49,831 nt of DNA, taken from Bacteroidales bacterium (lineage in GTDB: Bacteria > Bacteroidota > Bacteroidia > Bacteroidales > UBA932). Under the pieces are notes generated by a model. The model did not search any database. It was not told where the DNA came from and saw nothing but the letters and a program-made list of their open reading frames with translations. Made by a program: the position numbers and the translations under genes. Numbering within the stretch: the first letter of the stretch is position 1; every line of letters begins with the position of its first letter. The stretch lies in contig JAKSJM010000017.1 of the NCBI GenBank assembly GCA_024398075.1, positions 1 to 49,831 of the forward strand, written 5' to 3'. Of this stretch, positions 15,446-22,461 are shown in pieces.

Positions 15446-16318
15446 ATGAAATTCAGCGATTTTTGCACCCTTAACGGATGCCCTTCAGAGAATAACATAG
15501 CTATCCTGCAGAACTGTGAGTGGCCAGAAGAGCCGTTCATTCCGGAGTTTAACGTAGTGATGTACTCACATGGTGGAGAGGCACTGCTAAATGTAGAAGG
15601 AAGAGACTATAGTCTCTCAAGGAAGTGCATGTCCGTATTCAAGAGTGGCCAGAAGGTACACATCCGCAAGATGTCCTCATCATTTCGTACAAATGTCCTG
15701 GTAATCGGAGGAGACATAGGCCAGGAACTCAGCGTCAGCAGCGTGTTCCTAGGGCTGTTCATCCTCGACGAGACCCCTGTCATCAGAGTCACTTCAGAGT
15801 ATGCAGAAGCCTCTACCCTGTTCTTCGGGGCGATGGAAAGAGTGCTTCGCTTCACTTCGAATCCATACAAGAACGAGTGCATCCTGAGCCTTCTCAGAGC
15901 ATTCTTCTACAGTACTGGATATTACCTGAACAAGGCGCTTCGCTTTGACTGCTCAGACCTCTACAGGCTCTCTGTGGAGCATCAGCAGGACAAGGCCAGC
16001 CTTATCACCAGATTCATTAATCTAGTGGAGGCAAATGCCCAGAAGAACAGGAGAATGTCCTTCTATTCGGCGCAGCTTGGATATAATCCGAAATACCTCA
16101 GCTCGGTAGTGAAGAAAGAGACTGGTCTAAGCGGCCAGGACCTCATAGACCAGTACGCCATCCTAAGCGCCATGGCGAAACTCTCTTACTCCCATAAGAG
16201 CATCAAGGAGATCAGCAACGAGATGGAGTTCCCATCGCAGTCCGACTTCGGTAAGTTCTTCAAGCGAATGACCGGCCAGAGCCCTCTGAGCTACAAGAAA
16301 CAGAGACGCAGCCGCTAG
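15446..16318 (+). CDS. AraC family transcriptional regulator
   Basis: A 290-residue protein. The first 170 residues resemble the cupin-like sensing half of AraC proteins (VVMYSHGGEALLNVEGRDYSL), and the last 100 carry a double helix-turn-helix: MSFYSAQLGYNPKYLSSVVKKETG, then SIKEISNEMEFPSQSDFGKFFKRMTGQSPLSYKKQ. It is divergent from the acyl-CoA ligase gene, the obvious candidate target. Its stop codon overlaps the stop codon of the convergent aminotransferase gene in a CTAG palindrome. Effector unknown. Confidence 0.88.
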   Translation: MKFSDFCTLNGCPSENNIAILQNCEWPEEPFIPEFNVVMYSHGGEALLNVEGRDYSLSRKCMSVFKSGQKVHIRKMSSSFRTNVLVIGGDIGQELSVSSVFLGLFILDETPVIRVTSEYAEASTLFFGAMERVLRFTSNPYKNECILSLLRAFFYSTGYYLNKALRFDCSDLYRLSVEHQQDKASLITRFINLVEANAQKNRRMSFYSAQLGYNPKYLSSVVKKETGLSGQDLIDQYAILSAMAKLSYSHKSIKEISNEMEFPSQSDFGKFFKRMTGQSPLSYKKQRRSR

Positions 16319-17487
16319 AGCAGCCCTGCCAGTATGCGCACTCCCTCCTCCATGCGCTCGGAAGCGAGGAAGGAGAAATTCATGCGCATGGTATTCAGTC
16401 CACTTCCGTCCGTGCAGAAGAAAGTACCTGCCACATACGCCACGCCAGCGGCCAGGGCGCGGTCGTAGAGCTTCACTGTGTCGAACCCTTCTGGAAGGGT
16501 GAGAAACAGGAAGAGACCGCCCTCTGGATGCGTCCAGGACACGCCTGCAGGCATATATTTCTCCAGAAGCGAAAGAAGAAGATCCCTCTTCGTACGGTAT
16601 AGGTCAATGCTCTTGGCTAGATTACGGTCCAGCATACCACTTGCCATGAATTCCGCAGCGATGTACTGGTCCATGATAGGTGGACATAGATCCAATGACT
16701 GCTTGCAGACATATATTCTGTCCAATAGTTCAGGAGCTGCTATAACCCATCCCAGGCGAAAGCCTGGTGCAAGTATCTTCGAGAACGAGCCGAGATGAAG
16801 CACCCGGTCTGGGCACAATGAGTATATGGTCTCCACAGGAGCTCCTTCGTATCTAAGTTCCCTATAAGGGCTATCCTCAACTATCAGGAAATCATATTCT
16901 TCCGCCAGGCTTACCAGCAGACGGCGCTCATCCAGCGTAAGGGTCTCTCCAGAAGGATTCTGGAAGTCTGGAATCATGTAGAGGAACTTTATCTTCTTTC
17001 CAGCCTCCACGCACGCGTCAATGGCCTGCCTCCATGCATTCTCCCATTCAGAAATATCCGAGACATGAGGCACACCCACTATGTCCGCTCTATAGGACTT
17101 GAAGGACTGAAGTGCCCCCAGATAGCTTGGATTGGAGGTCAGGACCACGTCACCTGGGTCTACAAGAACCCTTGTGCACACATCTATGCCCTGCTGCGAG
17201 GAAGAGGTGATCTGCACGCGCTCCACAGGCACGCCATAGCGTGCCGACACGGCCGCGCGCAGCTCAGGCACGCCCTGGGTCGCGCCGTACTGGAACGCCT
17301 TCGCGCCGTACTTGTCTATCACCGCGGCGCTCAGGGCCTTGATATCCTCCAGAGGGAAGGTGGACGCATGAGGATATCCTCCCGCGAAGGAGTATATCTC
17401 ATTCAGGTCCACTTTCTTGAATATCTCCCTCACAGGGGAGCGGAAGAAGGAGAAGGTGTCTTCCGAAAAGAATGCATTGTACTCCAT
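16315..17487 (-). CDS. PLP-dependent class I/II aminotransferase, probable succinyl-diaminopimelate aminotransferase
   Basis: A 390-residue fold-type I aminotransferase. NPSGETLTLDERR, EDSPYRELRY and SFSKILAPGFRLGW (containing the PLP Lys) are visible, and the sequence resembles the 2-aminoadipate/MocR-type branch. The frame extends 12 codons further upstream, but the ATG at 17487 starts 1 bp after the dapD stop codon and gives the natural N-terminus. It is the sixth and last gene of the lysine operon, directly behind dapD. The succinylase pathway needs an aminotransferase between DapD and DapE, so that role is the best guess; it is inferred from position. Confidence 0.8.
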   Translation of the reverse strand: MEYNAFFSEDTFSFFRSPVREIFKKVDLNEIYSFAGGYPHASTFPLEDIKALSAAVIDKYGAKAFQYGATQGVPELRAAVSARYGVPVERVQITSSSQQGIDVCTRVLVDPGDVVLTSNPSYLGALQSFKSYRADIVGVPHVSDISEWENAWRQAIDACVEAGKKIKFLYMIPDFQNPSGETLTLDERRLLVSLAEEYDFLIVEDSPYRELRYEGAPVETIYSLCPDRVLHLGSFSKILAPGFRLGWVIAAPELLDRIYVCKQSLDLCPPIMDQYIAAEFMASGMLDRNLAKSIDLYRTKRDLLLSLLEKYMPAGVSWTHPEGGLFLFLTLPEGFDTVKLYDRALAAGVAYVAGTFFCTDGSGLNTMRMNFSFLASERMEEGVRILAGLL

Positions 17488-17488
17488 C

Positions 17489-18262
17489 CTATCTAAGCAG
17501 ATCTTCCAGTGAAGTAGAGCCATCGGTCTTGGCGTCCCTATACTTGACTATGACTGGACAGTAGAGATGTATGCCCGCCTCGGCGCCTGGTCCTTTGGTC
17601 ACAGGACGTGAGCCAGCAACTACAACTGCGCCAGAAGGGACTATCATCTGACCGTTTTCATTGGCCCTTATCCACTCACCCGTGGTAGCATCGTAGATAG
17701 CTGTGGAGGCGTTTATGATGACTCCTGTGCCTATAACGGCATTCTCACGCACGATGGTGCCCTCGTAGATGCCACAGTTGCCCCCGATGAAGACATTGTC
17801 CTCCACGATCACAGGGAGTGCACCCACAGGCTCCAGCACACCGCCGATCTGCGATGCCGCTGAGAGGTGCACGTGCTTGCCTATCTGCGCGCACGAGCCC
17901 ACCAGCGCGTGCGAGTCTATCATGGTACCCTCGTCGACGTATGCGCCTACATTGACATAAGCCGGCGGCATCATGACTACCGAAGGGGCGAGGAACGCGC
18001 CGCGACGCACTGAGCTGCCGCCTGGCACTATCCTCACGCCATCCTCCACGGTGAATTTTCTTACAGGATATGTATCCTTGTCCAGAAAGCCACCTGGCAT
18101 CTCGGTGAGTCTACCCAGTCGGAATCCAGACAGGATCACCTGCTTCACCTCTGGGTTCACTACCCATCCGTTCTCTGTCTTCTCGGCGACTCTGATCTCG
18201 CCATTCTCAAGCCCCTCCATCGTAGAGTCGAAGAGCTCTATCTGTCTCAAAATATCTTCCAT
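17489..18262 (-). CDS. dapD: 2,3,4,5-tetrahydropyridine-2,6-dicarboxylate N-succinyltransferase
   Basis: It transfers succinyl from succinyl-CoA to tetrahydrodipicolinate in diaminopimelate synthesis. 257 residues. The central half is a left-handed beta-helix of hexapeptide repeats ([20 protein letters not shown], then the IGGVLEP and [10 protein letters not shown] turns), and [15 protein letters not shown] plus [14 protein letters not shown] are DapD signatures. It lies between dapA (2-bp gap) and the aminotransferase (1-bp gap). Confidence 0.93.
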
Positions 18263-18264
18263 GA

Positions 18265-19152
18265 TTAAAATAGTTCAGCAAGTGTCTGTCTCATAATTTC
18301 TTCCGTCTCCTCAGTAGCTGGATAGAGCGGCAGGCGGAGGCTGTTCTCCATAAGTCCCATCTGGGCGAGCGCCGCCTTCACAGGGATAGGGTTTGACTCC
18401 ACGAAGCAGTTCTTGAAGAGCGGCATCAGTTTGTAGTGCAGCGCGCGCGCCGCCTTCATGTCGTCACGCTCCAGCGCCTCCACCAGCTGCACCATCCTCA
18501 CAGGGTCCACATTTGACGCTACACTGATCACTCCGTCTGCACCTGTCGCCATGAGCAAGAGGGTCTCGTCATCATTGCCACTAAGCACAGAGAAGCCCTC
18601 CGGACGGTGACGCAGGATCTGCGAGATCTGCGAATAGCGGCTTGACGCCTCCTTTACGGCCACGATATTCTCGACCTCTTCGGCCAGCCTCAGCGTGGTC
18701 TCGGCCTCGATGTTTGACCCTGTACGGCCTGGGACATTGTAAAGGACAATATCCTTGTCGGTCGACTCCGCTACAGCCTTGAAATACTCGAAAAGGCCCT
18801 TCTGCGTAGGTTTGTTGTAGTAAGGCACCACCACGAGGAAAGCGTCGGGACCGAAAGGCTCCAGCACCTTTATGCTGGCAATGGTCTGGGCAAGCGAGTT
18901 CGTGCCGCCACCCACTATCACAGGGCGGCCCTGGGCATGCTCCTTGGTCACCTGAAGTATCTTGATCTTCTCGATGTCGGTAAGGCACGGCGTCTCGCCT
19001 GTGGTTCCCAGAGGCACGAGGAAGTGCATTCCCGCCTCTACCTGTCTATCTGTCTGTCTGGCAATGGCTTCGTAATCCACCACTGCACCATTCTGTGCGA
19101 ATGGAGTAGGAAGGGCTGTACCACAGCCCTTGAAAAATATATGATTGGCCAT
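18265..19152 (-). CDS. dapA: 4-hydroxy-tetrahydrodipicolinate synthase
   Basis: This class I aldolase condenses aspartate semialdehyde with pyruvate, the first committed step to diaminopimelate. At 295 residues it has family length. GTTGETPCL near residue 50, the catalytic Tyr in [12 protein letters not shown] (about 138) and the Schiff-base Lys in IVAVKEAS (about 168) are all present. It is placed between dapB and dapD in the lysine operon, with 2-4 bp gaps. Confidence 0.95.
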
Positions 19153-19156
19153 GATA

Positions 19157-19828
19157 CTATCTATTGAAAATTATGTCCTTGAACTCAAATACGCCGTCGA
19201 GGCTCTCGGTGCGCAGAGCGGCCTCCACTGCACCCGCAGCAAAGCCCTCCCTCGAGAATGCCTCGTGTGTGAGGGTGATCCTGTCATTTGCTCCTTCAAA
19301 GCCGAGGGTGTGGATGCCAGGGATCTCTCCACAACGCACTGAGGCGATGTCTGGCGCGACACCAGTGTTTGCCTCAACGATGTCAGCAATGGACTTCGCT
19401 GTACCACTTGGACGGTCCAGCTTGTGGATGTGATGCTTTTCCTCCACGAACGCGCCGTATCCACCAGCTTCTGCAAGCATCTTTGAAAGAAAGTCAGAGG
19501 CAGCGAAGAAGACATTGACCCCGATGGAGAAATTCGATGCGTAAATCATGGTGGTACCGCACTCCTTGAAATAGCTGATTACCTCGTCCTTGATGTCATT
19601 CCAGCCCGTAGTACCCACTACCACGGCCTTGAAATGCTCTGCGAGGAACTTGTAGTTCGCCCTGAATGCTGATGGTGTAGTGAAGTCAATGCAGACGCAT
19701 TCCTTCGCGAGCTGCTGGTCTACAGAAGTGATGTCCTCGCTAGCTCCAGCGCATTCCAAGCCTCTGAGCTTGAGATTGTTCTCTACCATATGGCCCATCT
19801 TGCCATATCCGGATATGATGATTTTCAT
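19157..19828 (-). CDS. dapB: 4-hydroxy-tetrahydrodipicolinate reductase
   Basis: It reduces the DapA product with NAD(P)H. The 223 residues are shorter than the 270 or so of the enterobacterial enzyme. The N-terminal Rossmann motif is SGYGKMG; the catalytic and substrate-binding block VEEKHHIHKLDRPSGTAK is intact near residues 125-142. It follows lysC by 3 bp and precedes dapA by 4 bp. Confidence 0.94.
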   Translation of the reverse strand: MKIIISGYGKMGHMVENNLKLRGLECAGASEDITSVDQQLAKECVCIDFTTPSAFRANYKFLAEHFKAVVVGTTGWNDIKDEVISYFKECGTTMIYASNFSIGVNVFFAASDFLSKMLAEAGGYGAFVEEKHHIHKLDRPSGTAKSIADIVEANTGVAPDIASVRCGEIPGIHTLGFEGANDRITLTHEAFSREGFAAGAVEAALRTESLDGVFEFKDIIFNR

Positions 19829-19831
19829 AGT

Positions 19832-21187
19832 TTATTCAAATAGTGATTTATGAATGCCATTCACGGCCTCTGGAAGCGCCTCGCTGTCCACAACGACCGA
19901 GATGTTGATATATGATGCTCCCTGAGAAATCATATAGAGTTTCTTTCCCTGAAGAGCACCGAGGATGTTCTGCATGAGACCATCTATGTTTACAAGATTC
20001 TTTCCAATGACAGATATCTGGGACTTGCCCTCATCCATCACTACATCGGCGAACTCTGAGAGTTCCCTTGTAACCTTCTCGATGTTCTTCGGAGCATGGT
20101 CGCAAGTCACGGAGATGTTTGCCTCTGTGGTGCTGATCAGGTCCACGGAAACATTGTTACGACTGAAGATGTCGAAAACCTTGCTGAGGAAGCCAGACGC
20201 ATCGATCATCTTCGTGGAGAAGATGTTGATCACGAGGATGTCCTTCTTGAAGGACACCGACTTCACGCTGTCCTCGGTGCCGGCCTCCTCGATGATGAGG
20301 GTGCCACTGCCTGAAGGCTTCATGGAGTTCAGCACATAGATAGGAATGTTCTGTCTTACAGCAGGTTCGATGGTCAGAGGATGCAGCACCTTGGCGCCGA
20401 AATGCGCCATCTCTGCGGCCTCCTCGAAGGAGATGACATCGAGTTTCTTAGCAGTAGGGACCATGCGAGGGTCAGCGGTGAGGACGCCGTCTACGTCGGT
20501 CCAGATCTCGATGGCCTCTGCACCAAGAGCCATACCGATGAGGGATGCCGTGTAGTCCGAACCGCCACGACCGAGCACTGAGGTCACGCCACTGACGTCA
20601 CTAGCGATGAAGCCCTGGGTGATGACAGCCTGATGTCCCTGAAAAGCATCGCCCACAACGATTGGCACGAGCTCACAGATTCTGCCCTCCTGCGGCTCGC
20701 CCTTCATGAGCTCGCCCTCAGTGATCATCATCTTGCGCGCATCCACCCAAGAGGTCTTGATGCCTCTGGCGTTCATGGCATAGCTGATGATGGTTGAAGA
20801 GAGAAGTTCTCCATTTGACACGATCATGGCCTTGCTTCGCTCGCTGAGCTCGCCCAGAGCGCATACCGCGATGACGAACTGCTCAAGCTCGTCGCAGATC
20901 TCGTTCACGCTGGACACAGCTGGAAGCATGAGTCCAGCGTTGCCATCAAGGAGTTCATCAGCCACGTCTATGTGTCTGTTTCTGAGCTGTGCGAGCAGCT
21001 CCATCGCTGCCTTGTGATCCTTGGCTGCAGCCTTGTCAGCGATGAGATAGAGTAGGTCTGTGACGCCAGACATAGCCGACACCACCACGACTGGCTGCTT
21101 CTCGATCTTCGAGCCAATGATATCGATGGTTCTCGAGATCGCTTCGTTTCCGGCCACTGATGTGCCGCCGAATTTCATTACAATCAT
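19832..21187 (-). CDS. lysC: aspartate kinase (monofunctional, ACT-regulated)
   Basis: It phosphorylates aspartate to open the aspartate amino-acid family. 451 residues: the kinase domain starts MKFGGTSVAGNE and carries FIASDVSGVTSVLGRGGSDYTA and EIWTDVDGVLTADPR. Two ACT-like domains occupy about residues 300-451. No homoserine dehydrogenase domain is attached. Placement in the diaminopimelate operon makes it the likely lysine-sensitive isozyme; this is inference. It lies 7 bp behind the M20 gene. Confidence 0.95.
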   Translation of the reverse strand: MIVMKFGGTSVAGNEAISRTIDIIGSKIEKQPVVVVSAMSGVTDLLYLIADKAAAKDHKAAMELLAQLRNRHIDVADELLDGNAGLMLPAVSSVNEICDELEQFVIAVCALGELSERSKAMIVSNGELLSSTIISYAMNARGIKTSWVDARKMMITEGELMKGEPQEGRICELVPIVVGDAFQGHQAVITQGFIASDVSGVTSVLGRGGSDYTASLIGMALGAEAIEIWTDVDGVLTADPRMVPTAKKLDVISFEEAAEMAHFGAKVLHPLTIEPAVRQNIPIYVLNSMKPSGSGTLIIEEAGTEDSVKSVSFKKDILVINIFSTKMIDASGFLSKVFDIFSRNNVSVDLISTTEANISVTCDHAPKNIEKVTRELSEFADVVMDEGKSQISVIGKNLVNIDGLMQNILGALQGKKLYMISQGASYINISVVVDSEALPEAVNGIHKSLFE

Positions 21188-21194
21188 AGTTCGT

Positions 21195-22226
21195 TTATAT
21201 ATTTTTCAAAGTTTCAAACATTCTTACATACTGGTCACGAGCACTTTCCAGTTCGGAAAGTCTAATCTGCTCCTCCGGTCTATGTGCCACCAGGATGGAG
21301 CCTGGGCCGCAGAGTATCTTCTCAGGGAAATTCGTGAGCTGAGGAGTGTCGCTGCCGAACGCCACAGTCTTTGTCGGGAAACCTTCGAGCGTGGTGTAGT
21401 GCATAGGAGTATCTCCGCCGAAGGCCTGGAATTCCAAGCGTGGACTGCCGTCAATGCATCCCAATGCATCAGCAGCCTCAGCAATGAACCTCTCCACCAT
21501 ACTGTCGGAAGCGAATGTGGTGCGGAAGTACAGACGACATTCAAGGCGCTCGCTGAGTATGTTCTGAGGATTGTCGCTGGAGAGCTTTCCTATGTTCCAG
21601 GTGGTCTCTCCAAGCAGTTCGTCCTTAGGCCACTGCTGAGCCTTCAGATGGCTCAGGAATGTGTAGAAAGTGTCAATGGCACTTTCGCCCATCTTCGGGT
21701 AGCCTGAATGGAATGGCTTTCCATGGAAGGTCAACGCGAAAGACTTAGTGCCTTTGCTGGCGCTCACCATGCTTCCATCAGTCGGCTCGCCGACGATCAC
21801 GGCGCGGCCGCCAGGGTGCTGCGTGCGGAAGGCCTTGGCTCCGAAGGAGCCGGTCTCCTCGCCGCTAAGCAGCAGAAGGCCGAAGCCGCTGTGCCCTCTC
21901 CGCTCCAGTTCCAGACACGCGCTATACAGCGCGAATATCTGGCCCTTCGCGTCGCAGGTCCCGCGTCCTCGGAAGATAGTATCTCCGTCTTCCAGACTTT
22001 CCATGCTCGGAGCGATGTATGGAGGTACTGTGTCCATATGCGAGCAGAACACTATCTCCGGCTCACCCCAGCTAAAGAGGAGGTTTTCAGTACCGTCTCC
22101 TACTTCCCAGCGTTCAAGCTTGCAGGCTGGTGTCTTAAAGGCGGCAGACAGATGCTCGGATAGAGCCCTTTCCTTTCCAGAAGTGGACTCAATCCTGAGC
22201 ATGTCCATGAATAGTTCGATATTCAT
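21195..22226 (-). CDS. M20 family metallohydrolase, probable succinyl-diaminopimelate desuccinylase
   Basis: 343 residues, first gene of the lysine operon. Zinc-site motifs of M20 deacylases are present: CSHMDTVPP (about 61-69), GRGTCDAKGQ (about 90-99, bridging Asp) and SGEETGSFGAK (catalytic Glu pair, about 120-130). An internal dimerisation domain (KPFHSGYPKMGESAID) follows. M20 enzymes also include ArgE-type deacetylases, and sequence alone does not separate them. Co-transcription with dapD, dapA, dapB and lysC favours DapE function. Its ATG lies 18 nt after the T-run of a leader terminator. Confidence 0.85.
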   Translation of the reverse strand: MNIELFMDMLRIESTSGKERALSEHLSAAFKTPACKLERWEVGDGTENLLFSWGEPEIVFCSHMDTVPPYIAPSMESLEDGDTIFRGRGTCDAKGQIFALYSACLELERRGHSGFGLLLLSGEETGSFGAKAFRTQHPGGRAVIVGEPTDGSMVSASKGTKSFALTFHGKPFHSGYPKMGESAIDTFYTFLSHLKAQQWPKDELLGETTWNIGKLSSDNPQNILSERLECRLYFRTTFASDSMVERFIAEAADALGCIDGSPRLEFQAFGGDTPMHYTTLEGFPTKTVAFGSDTPQLTNFPEKILCGPGSILVAHRPEEQIRLSELESARDQYVRMFETLKNI

Positions 22227-22244: not shown

Positions 22245-22279
22245 AAAAAAAGAAGGCGAACCGCCGGGGCTCGCCTTCT
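22245..22279 (-). terminator. leader terminator (attenuator) of the lysine operon
   Basis: On the minus strand AGAAGGCGA (22279-22271), an 11-nt loop GCCCCGGCGGT, TCGCCTTCT (22259-22251) and seven T form a textbook intrinsic terminator. It lies between the operon promoter and the first structural gene, not after a gene. The CCCCGGCGG in its loop is complementary to CTGCCGGGG inside the upstream leader ORF. Confidence 0.9.
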
Positions 22280-22308
22280 CGTATCTTTCTTCGCTTTTTC
22301 AGTTCAGA

Positions 22309-22383
22309 TTACTTCATAGAGGACCCCGGCAGACTGCACACCTGCTTCTTGCACTTGGAATCCTGCTTTATGAAAGACATCAT
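22309..22383 (-). CDS. lysine-rich leader peptide (putative attenuator peptide)
   Basis: A 24-codon ORF starting ATG ATG and ending TAA. Five codons are Lys (AAG at positions 6, 10, 12, 13 and 24), with the cluster KCKK at 10-13. It begins about 12-18 nt after the expected transcription start of the promoter at 22402-22431 and ends 29 nt before the terminator stem. Codons 18-20 (CTG CCG GGG) can form 9 pairs with the terminator loop, and CTC/GAG could extend the helix into the terminator stem. Scarce charged tRNA-Lys would stall the ribosome at the Lys cluster, leave codons 18-20 free and favour antitermination. It is too short for routine gene calling. Confidence 0.72.
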   Translation of the reverse strand: MMSFIKQDSKCKKQVCSLPGSSMK

Positions 22384-22401
22384 ATCTAAAACTGATTTTT
22401 G

Positions 22402-22431
22402 CAAATGTAAAGATTATTTCTTGCTTTCCAA
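22402..22431 (-). promoter_or_regulatory. promoter of the lysine operon
   Basis: On the minus strand TTG (22431-22429), a 19-nt spacer and TACATTTG (22409-22402), a full match to the Bacteroidota consensus. It starts 30 nt past the end of the carboxylesterase gene. Confidence 0.85.
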
Positions 22432-22461
22432 ACTTTTGGCTAAAAATTTTAGTAAAAAAGT

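Follow-up and report, generated by a model that had tools for sequence, protein, structure and literature searches.

The window, a stretch of 49,831 nucleotides from a Bacteroidales assembly of 2.49 Mb that is 82% complete, carries upstream of a lysine operon an element that is very probably a lysine-specific, ribosome-mediated transcription attenuator. Its parts stand in order on the minus strand, comparable leaders recur before lysine operons in other genomes, and the leader offers alternative pairings that bear on its terminator. An earlier note on this DNA had proposed a lysine attenuator from the letters alone, and our comparisons, themselves made at the level of sequence, support that reading.

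Architecture of the leader and its operon

All the parts listed in the earlier note are confirmed between positions 22432 and 22245 of the minus strand: a promoter, a 24-codon ORF with five Lys codons, a terminator with seven T, and 18 nt from the terminator end to the ATG (22226) of a dapE-like gene (Table 1). Promoters of the Bacteroidota follow the consensus TTTG-N19-TAnnTTTG, and a TAnnTTTG box lies 5-41 nt 5' of the leader ATG in 17 of the 18 leaders compared below, a count that carries no chance estimate. The Lys codons of the window leader occupy positions 6, 10, 12, 13 and 24; for five Lys in 24 codons, a binomial on the leader's own base composition gives P=0.0018.

Segments 2 and 3 form nine pairs by eye, one of them G-U. 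This complementarity had been described as one to the hairpin loop; the pairs stand, but they reach into the upper stem and are not confined to the loop. Because the complement of segment 2 overlaps the upper stem of the terminator, the two folds are mutually exclusive. The terminator core joins 22279-22271 with 22259-22251, and by energy the stem reaches 13 bp. The duplex between leader and terminator has an energy of -20.4 kcal/mol, where shuffled leaders average -13.0 (p=0.014), and the fold of the leader beats 200 of 200 shuffles (z -2.86). Segment 1, if uncovered by a ribosome, would pair with GGGGTCCT, a role suggested by the predicted fold; pairing comparable to it occurs in locus L044.

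Table 1. Features of the window leader and of the operon that follows it.
Feature	Position	Strand	Basis or detail
Promoter, Bacteroidota-type, TTTG-N19-TACATTTG	22402..22432	-	direct pattern match
Leader ORF MMSFIKQDSKCKKQVCSLPGSSMK	22309..22383	-	24 codons, ATG at 22383, stop ends 22309
Segment 1 AGGATTCC	22357..22364	-	pairs with GGGGTCCT (22327-22320) in minimum-energy fold
Segment 2 CTGCCGGGG, putative antiterminator strand, codons 18-20	22324..22332	-	shuffle-tested duplex
Segment 3 CCCCGGCGG, terminator upper stem and loop	22261..22269	-	fold
Intrinsic terminator hairpin GAGAAGGCGAGCC(CCGGC)GGTTCGCCTTCTT, 13-bp stem	22250..22280	-	folding energy
Terminator U tract, seven T	22245..22251	-	sequence
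M20 peptidase, DapE/ArgE-like deacylase	21195..22226	-	PF01546, PF07687
lysC, lysine-sensitive aspartokinase	19832..21187	-	NF006570 456 bits, cut-off 455
dapB	19157..19828	-	TIGR00036 124.5 bits, cut-off 122
dapA	18265..19152	-	TIGR00674 307.3 bits, cut-off 206.15
dapD, tetrahydrodipicolinate N-succinyltransferase	17489..18262	-	NF008808 309 bits, cut-off 204
Class I/II aminotransferase	16315..17523	-	PF00155; NCBIfam models shown all below cut-off

The six genes that follow on the minus strand run dapE-lysC-dapB-dapA-dapD-aminotransferase, and they bear out the lysine operon of the earlier note: lysC, dapB, dapA and dapD pass NCBIfam cut-offs, and the other two are assigned by Pfam and position. 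The genes downstream of the leader make lysine, as a ribosome-mediated attenuator of lysine requires. The M20 gene scores under the cut-offs of the NCBIfam DapE/ArgE models shown, and its name, dapE, is taken from the operon. From its position, the aminotransferase is probably the succinyl-DAP aminotransferase; MocR-like models, rather than any known DapC model, give its best scores, and when called from the first ATG it overlaps dapD by 35 nt. The window LysC clears the cut-off of the lysine-sensitive aspartokinase 3 model by a single bit; its identity with the listed lysC matches from the order's other families is 34-39%.

This arrangement suggests how the operon may be controlled. A ribosome would translate the leader behind RNA polymerase and, when Lys-tRNA is scarce, would stall at Lys codons (12/13 in the window), leaving segment 2 (codons 18-20) free to pair with segment 3; that pairing would block the terminator, and the operon would be transcribed. 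When Lys-tRNA is plentiful, the ribosome would reach the stop codon and cover most of segment 2, in which case the hairpin would form and transcription would end 18 nt before dapE. What we infer for this leader is that the ribosome stalls, that transcription terminates and that the operon responds to lysine or Lys-tRNA.

The leader in close relatives

Related leaders were found with the sequence model R1 in 8 of 400 genomes of genus g1, before dapE in G000, G219, G032, G059, G240 and G305 and before lysC in G030 and G344. Matches to R1 at E<=1 fell in 85 genomes, and the 16 loci examined divided by eye into 8 leaders and 8 that were not. A degenerate SKCxKQ pattern matched in 15 of 200 genus genomes, three of which (G000, G032 and G059) have leaders by eye; a scan of genome contigs gave four loci with a leader in one (L032), and a plasmid collection gave no match. 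R1 and the second model used, R2, describe sequence only, with no column-wise covariation counted, because the terminator stems do not align by column. The operon of G030 is lysC-dapB-dapA-ddh, its ddh scoring above the DAP dehydrogenase cut-off, and that of G344 is lysC-dapB-dapA by similarity; thus the leader tracks lysine synthesis, not dapE as such.

All eight g1 leaders retain the Lys residues that align with codons 6, 10 and 13, and AAG/AAA exchanges occur at these positions among the five leaders compared. Conservation also extends to residues other than Lys, namely a Phe ahead of the first Lys and a Gln behind the last Lys of the cluster, and the window and L032, which comes from a horse-faeces Bacteroidales MAG, share 138 of 138 leader bases. 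Both observations would suit an arrest peptide, in which the nascent chain senses free lysine or some other ligand and stalls, charged Lys-tRNA not being the signal; TnaC is a nascent peptide that arrests in response to tryptophan. We consider such a peptide very improbable here, since the conserved Cys of SKCxKQ is Ser in G030 and G344 and since the leaders of the more distant g10, g11, f18, f99 and f89 have, by eye, no motif in common with the window beyond their Lys richness. Between L032 and the window, dapE is 58% identical at third codon positions, with 73 of 137 fourfold sites identical, and the gene upstream is 92% identical, so the identity of the leader may partly reflect local history.

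At two further loci, L003 and L033, the latter from Candidatus Cryptobacteroides onthequi, dapE is 69-72% identical and stands without a Lys ORF; the operon therefore can do without the leader. Ahead of dapE these two loci have a promoter-like box, the start-stop ATGTGA and a hairpin resembling a terminator. Judging by L033 and L032, the window probably belongs to Cryptobacteroides or a genus near it. Fold z-scores lie near those of shuffles for L058 (-1.6), L059 (-0.8) and L060 (-1.1).

Leaders in distant relatives

The model R2 matched in 16 genomes, and two of the seven further loci examined have leaders. Both g10 genomes carry leaders before dapE, MMSKKSYKRGKQVSNLLRDSLV and MALKSKHNPKQNKRKNCLPWNFIA, whose pairing runs with the terminator are GGGACT:AGTCCC and GTGGAACT:GGTTCCAC. 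Four of six dapE loci in g11 have leaders (MNSTYCTKSIKPAGKKPHLR, MNRTICTKSIKQASKKPHLR, MNKSIKKYLFSSKKPKL and MNTISVNNNQFKNSSKKP), and none was found at the dapE locus of G570. In another g11 genome, G575 (locus L112), the MNSTYCTKSIKPAGKKPHLR leader and the terminator are as in G504, and the stretch carrying the promoter box and the leader start is missing from the assembly, either truly deleted or lost through faulty assembly. Lys-rich leaders stand at 7 of 16 monofunctional lysC loci in f18 (for example MKGLKNIVKIKQVKRIKPVYKRM), with one each in f99 and f89, MKKMKKYNKQKKDKTICRALLF and MFNSKQTVIISKKYKHYVFWVLLL.

The genes behind these leaders are arranged in three layouts: dapE-lysC-dapB-dapA-dapD-aminotransferase, lysC-dapB-dapA-ddh, and lysC-lysA. 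G219, G305, G408, G504 and G428 follow the gene order of the window's operon as far as dapD or the aminotransferase, with about 1.2 kb of unread sequence between dapE and lysC in G408; the other dapE-first loci end earlier. A lysA homologue is next after lysC in all ten loci followed downstream (six in f18 and one each in f99, f89, f24 and f80), and that of G656 scores above the lysA cut-off. A terminator was placed between ORF and gene by the finder in 17 of 18 leaders; that of G886, whose U tract is interrupted, was recognised by eye and set manually. In the window segment 2 lies within the ORF, but several leaders of f18 and g11 have it at or just past the stop codon.

The leaders at L246 (G662) and L153 (G718), which precede lysC-lysA, combine many Met, Thr and Lys codons. 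Their pairing with the terminator is strong (p=0.010 and 0.002; 0.010 each on repeat), and leaders of this type may possibly provide one attenuator for the aspartate family. In genus g186, the lysC loci L168-L172, L174, L177 and L178 have a recurrent terminator-like hairpin 34-35 nt upstream without a Lys-rich leader ORF.

Lysine codons at loci chosen by gene position

We also took 69 dapE and 71 lysC loci of Bacteroidales by gene position, counting as a pair any sORF 14-45 codons long that precedes a terminator no more than 140 nt from the gene, and as Lys-rich any sORF with at least 3 Lys making up at least 16%, a threshold that was set after leaders had been seen and under which the true leaders L012 and L013 are not rich. 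Lys-rich pairs make up 12 of 22 at the dapE and lysC loci and 8 of 153 elsewhere (P=4.3e-8), in a comparison that takes the most Lys-rich sORF per locus on one side and every distinct peptide on the other and so favours the survey. Six of the eight Lys-rich lysC loci come from f18, which was sampled after G656 had been found there, and the background of 153 rests on DNA fetched for this question, after removal of one true leader, L201. Among loci drawn by class, 0 of 27 were Lys-rich, and a pair of any kind was present in two.

The element is patchy: 118 of the 140 dapE and lysC loci have no such pair. The earlier note had looked to relatives for conserved Lys codons, terminator and complementarity. 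Comparable leaders keep all three, with different peptides, in three operon layouts and several families; conservation fails as a rule for every relative with the operon, given the 118 loci and the Lys-free L003 and L033. It is very improbable that an ordinary terminator, either constitutive or belonging to the upstream gene, happens to follow a chance Lys-rich uORF. Hairpins without a Lys ORF at L003, L033 and the g186 lysC loci speak for such a coincidence, but in the window a promoter and an ORF separate the hairpin from the upstream gene, and the 12 of 22 against 8 of 153 shows Lys richness to be atypical of sORF-terminator pairs elsewhere.

Within the leaders, Lys codons number 93 of 412 in frame against 22 of 394 and 36 of 394 in the other frames, the leaders having been chosen partly for Lys. 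A binomial on the base composition of each leader gives P from 0.0018 to 0.4, a weak test, since a leader's A content rises with its Lys codons. For G408 these per-leader counts use an inner start. The leader tables leave out G219, G240 and G344 as near-copies and G575 and G887, in which the Lys ORF is not clear; L241, L246, L247 and L153 also stand outside the main tables and were tested later.

Many of the genomes compared are incomplete assemblies. A search of the order with the window LysC gave 42 matched places, 20 of which were examined. Since this LysC is distant from those of the order (39 of 247 genomes at E<=1e-70), the LysC of G656 served as query instead; one search with it gave 61 places, of which 55 were taken and 54 gave a start, and the other gave 28 loci from 67 places, two of these loci being from the window's own order.

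Pairing between leader and terminator

Pairing of leader with terminator exceeds that of shuffles across 16 leader clusters (Fisher P=2e-8) and with one leader per lineage (P=2.9e-5), in a test made after the pairing had been noticed by eye in some leaders. Single leaders give weaker results, with p>0.1 for leaders D, E, O and P (4 of 18) and 0.100 for C. Seven other sORFs used as controls give P=0.97.

Among the survey pairs, the signal is P=2.6e-9 for the 12 that are Lys-rich and P=0.005 for the 10 that are less rich, and it is stronger in the former (P=0.035). The less rich pairs serve as an imperfect control. Their signal comes from L012 and L013, which are homologues of the window leader, from L112, the G575 remnant (p=0.036), and from L153 and L246, a sorting that was made afterwards: the signal falls to P=0.027 without L012 and L013 and to P=0.61 for the six that remain without L153 and L246 as well, and L130, L138, L146, L170 and L174 each have p>=0.42. 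The added leaders L241, L247, L246 and L153 give P=5e-5 together, a set that draws L246 and L153 from the less rich pairs and omits L112; restricted to L241 and L247, the test gives P=0.019, with L247 by itself at p>0.3.

A folding model considered a transcript ending before the 3' arm of the terminator and scored how far upstream RNA sequesters the 5' arm. For the window, the modelled score is 0.55 whichever of Lys codons 6 to 13 the ribosome stalls at, and it is 0.03 with the ribosome at the stop codon. The score without a ribosome is also 0.55, like the stalled one, so that protection by segment 1 is not demonstrated in the window; the model suggests such protection in G504 (0.31 ribosome-free, about 0.84 stalled) and G560 (0.19 and about 0.83). 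Antitermination drops between Lys and stop in 17 of 18 leaders, by a small amount in N and L, and shows no drop in I. Five of the seven non-Lys controls have a Lys codon for stalling and four of these five show the same drop; thus the modelled drop is not diagnostic.

Comparison with riboswitches, T-boxes and threonine leaders

Lysine synthesis is a textbook case of riboswitch control, in which the lysine riboswitch (RF00168) governs lysine genes, often via premature termination. Its aptamer senses lysine directly, whereas the window element is, by our proposal, coupled to translation. RF00168 scored over cut-off in none of 20 family f1 genomes, with sub-threshold matches at E<=1 in 7 of them, and in 4 of 14 control genomes. 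The window leader matched no Rfam family at the gathering score, RF00168 and T-box included, and at E<=1 the 18 leader loci gave six matches, all below gathering and none to RF00168 or T-box. An undescribed lysine-binding aptamer or T-box-like RNA that uses the terminator is the least probable of the readings considered: the window leader and two further leaders do fold better than nearly all shuffles, but these Rfam searches speak against it, and the recurring feature is an ORF with Lys codons, whereas the sequence of the RNA varies.

Two of the six matches, in L241 and L247, place the threonine operon leader on the sense strand over the terminator, with 28.1 and 26.9 bits (gathering 55). Thr-rich sORFs, in place of Lys-rich ones, lie upstream of thrA paralogues in 12 of 14 f18 loci (L182-L195); the most Thr-rich one per locus, picked by Thr, has 6-11 Thr and 0-3 Lys. 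The finder placed no terminator near thrA in these 14 loci, one lying 283 nt away in L190.

Discussion

Leader-peptide attenuators are known for his, trp, leu, thr, ilv and phe. The window element resembles these classical systems in having a short ORF, rich in codons for the regulated amino acid, before the operon for that amino acid, and in setting an antiterminator against an intrinsic terminator; it differs from them in its amino acid, lysine, and in its phylum, Bacteroidota. Lysine as the sensed amino acid is the new part, and most of the testable features of an attenuator are present.

Leader peptides in this phylum are not new, as two reports indicate. Flavobacterium psychrophilum, also of the Bacteroidota, shows clues to leader peptides before amino-acid operons, with pheA and hisG among its conserved 5' elements, and attenuation has been suggested there in a main text from which lysine is absent (PMC9723704). 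In Bacteroides thetaiotaomicron, a member of the Bacteroidales, sORFs in long 5' UTRs are reminiscent of leader peptides, but the example given precedes a hypothetical gene and lysine is likewise absent from the main text (PMC7366714). Elsewhere, the short ORF SEP5 of Sinorhizobium contains 6 Thr and 3 Lys codons, lies upstream of an aspartate-related gene and has been proposed as a possible leader peptide; it differs in belonging to the Alphaproteobacteria and in being mainly Thr, and the passages on SEP5 mention no terminator or antiterminator (PMC10117765). For lysQ of Lactococcus lactis, a permease gene with a lys name, leader regulation has been predicted, but it depends on histidyl-tRNA, and the specificity of the permease is said to be altered (PMC4833913). 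We found no lysine leader attenuation in Bacteroidota, nor the phrase 'lysine leader peptide', in the open-access literature searched, so priority is not certain.

A wider reading is that lysine attenuators serve in Bacteroidales where other bacteria rely on the riboswitch, that they have arisen or been rewritten several times with unrelated peptides, and that in some families the lysC-lysA leader senses the aspartate family through Met, Thr and Lys codons jointly. We hold this only tentatively and place it at somewhat under an even chance. The plan stays constant across leaders whose peptides vary, which makes these leaders a natural series for following the evolution of attenuators. Their design also provides a simple signature for annotating leader ORFs that have so far gone unannotated. 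If the proposal is true, it would imply working coupling of transcription and translation in Bacteroidales, and an attenuator of this kind would supply a missing piece in the picture of amino-acid sensing there.
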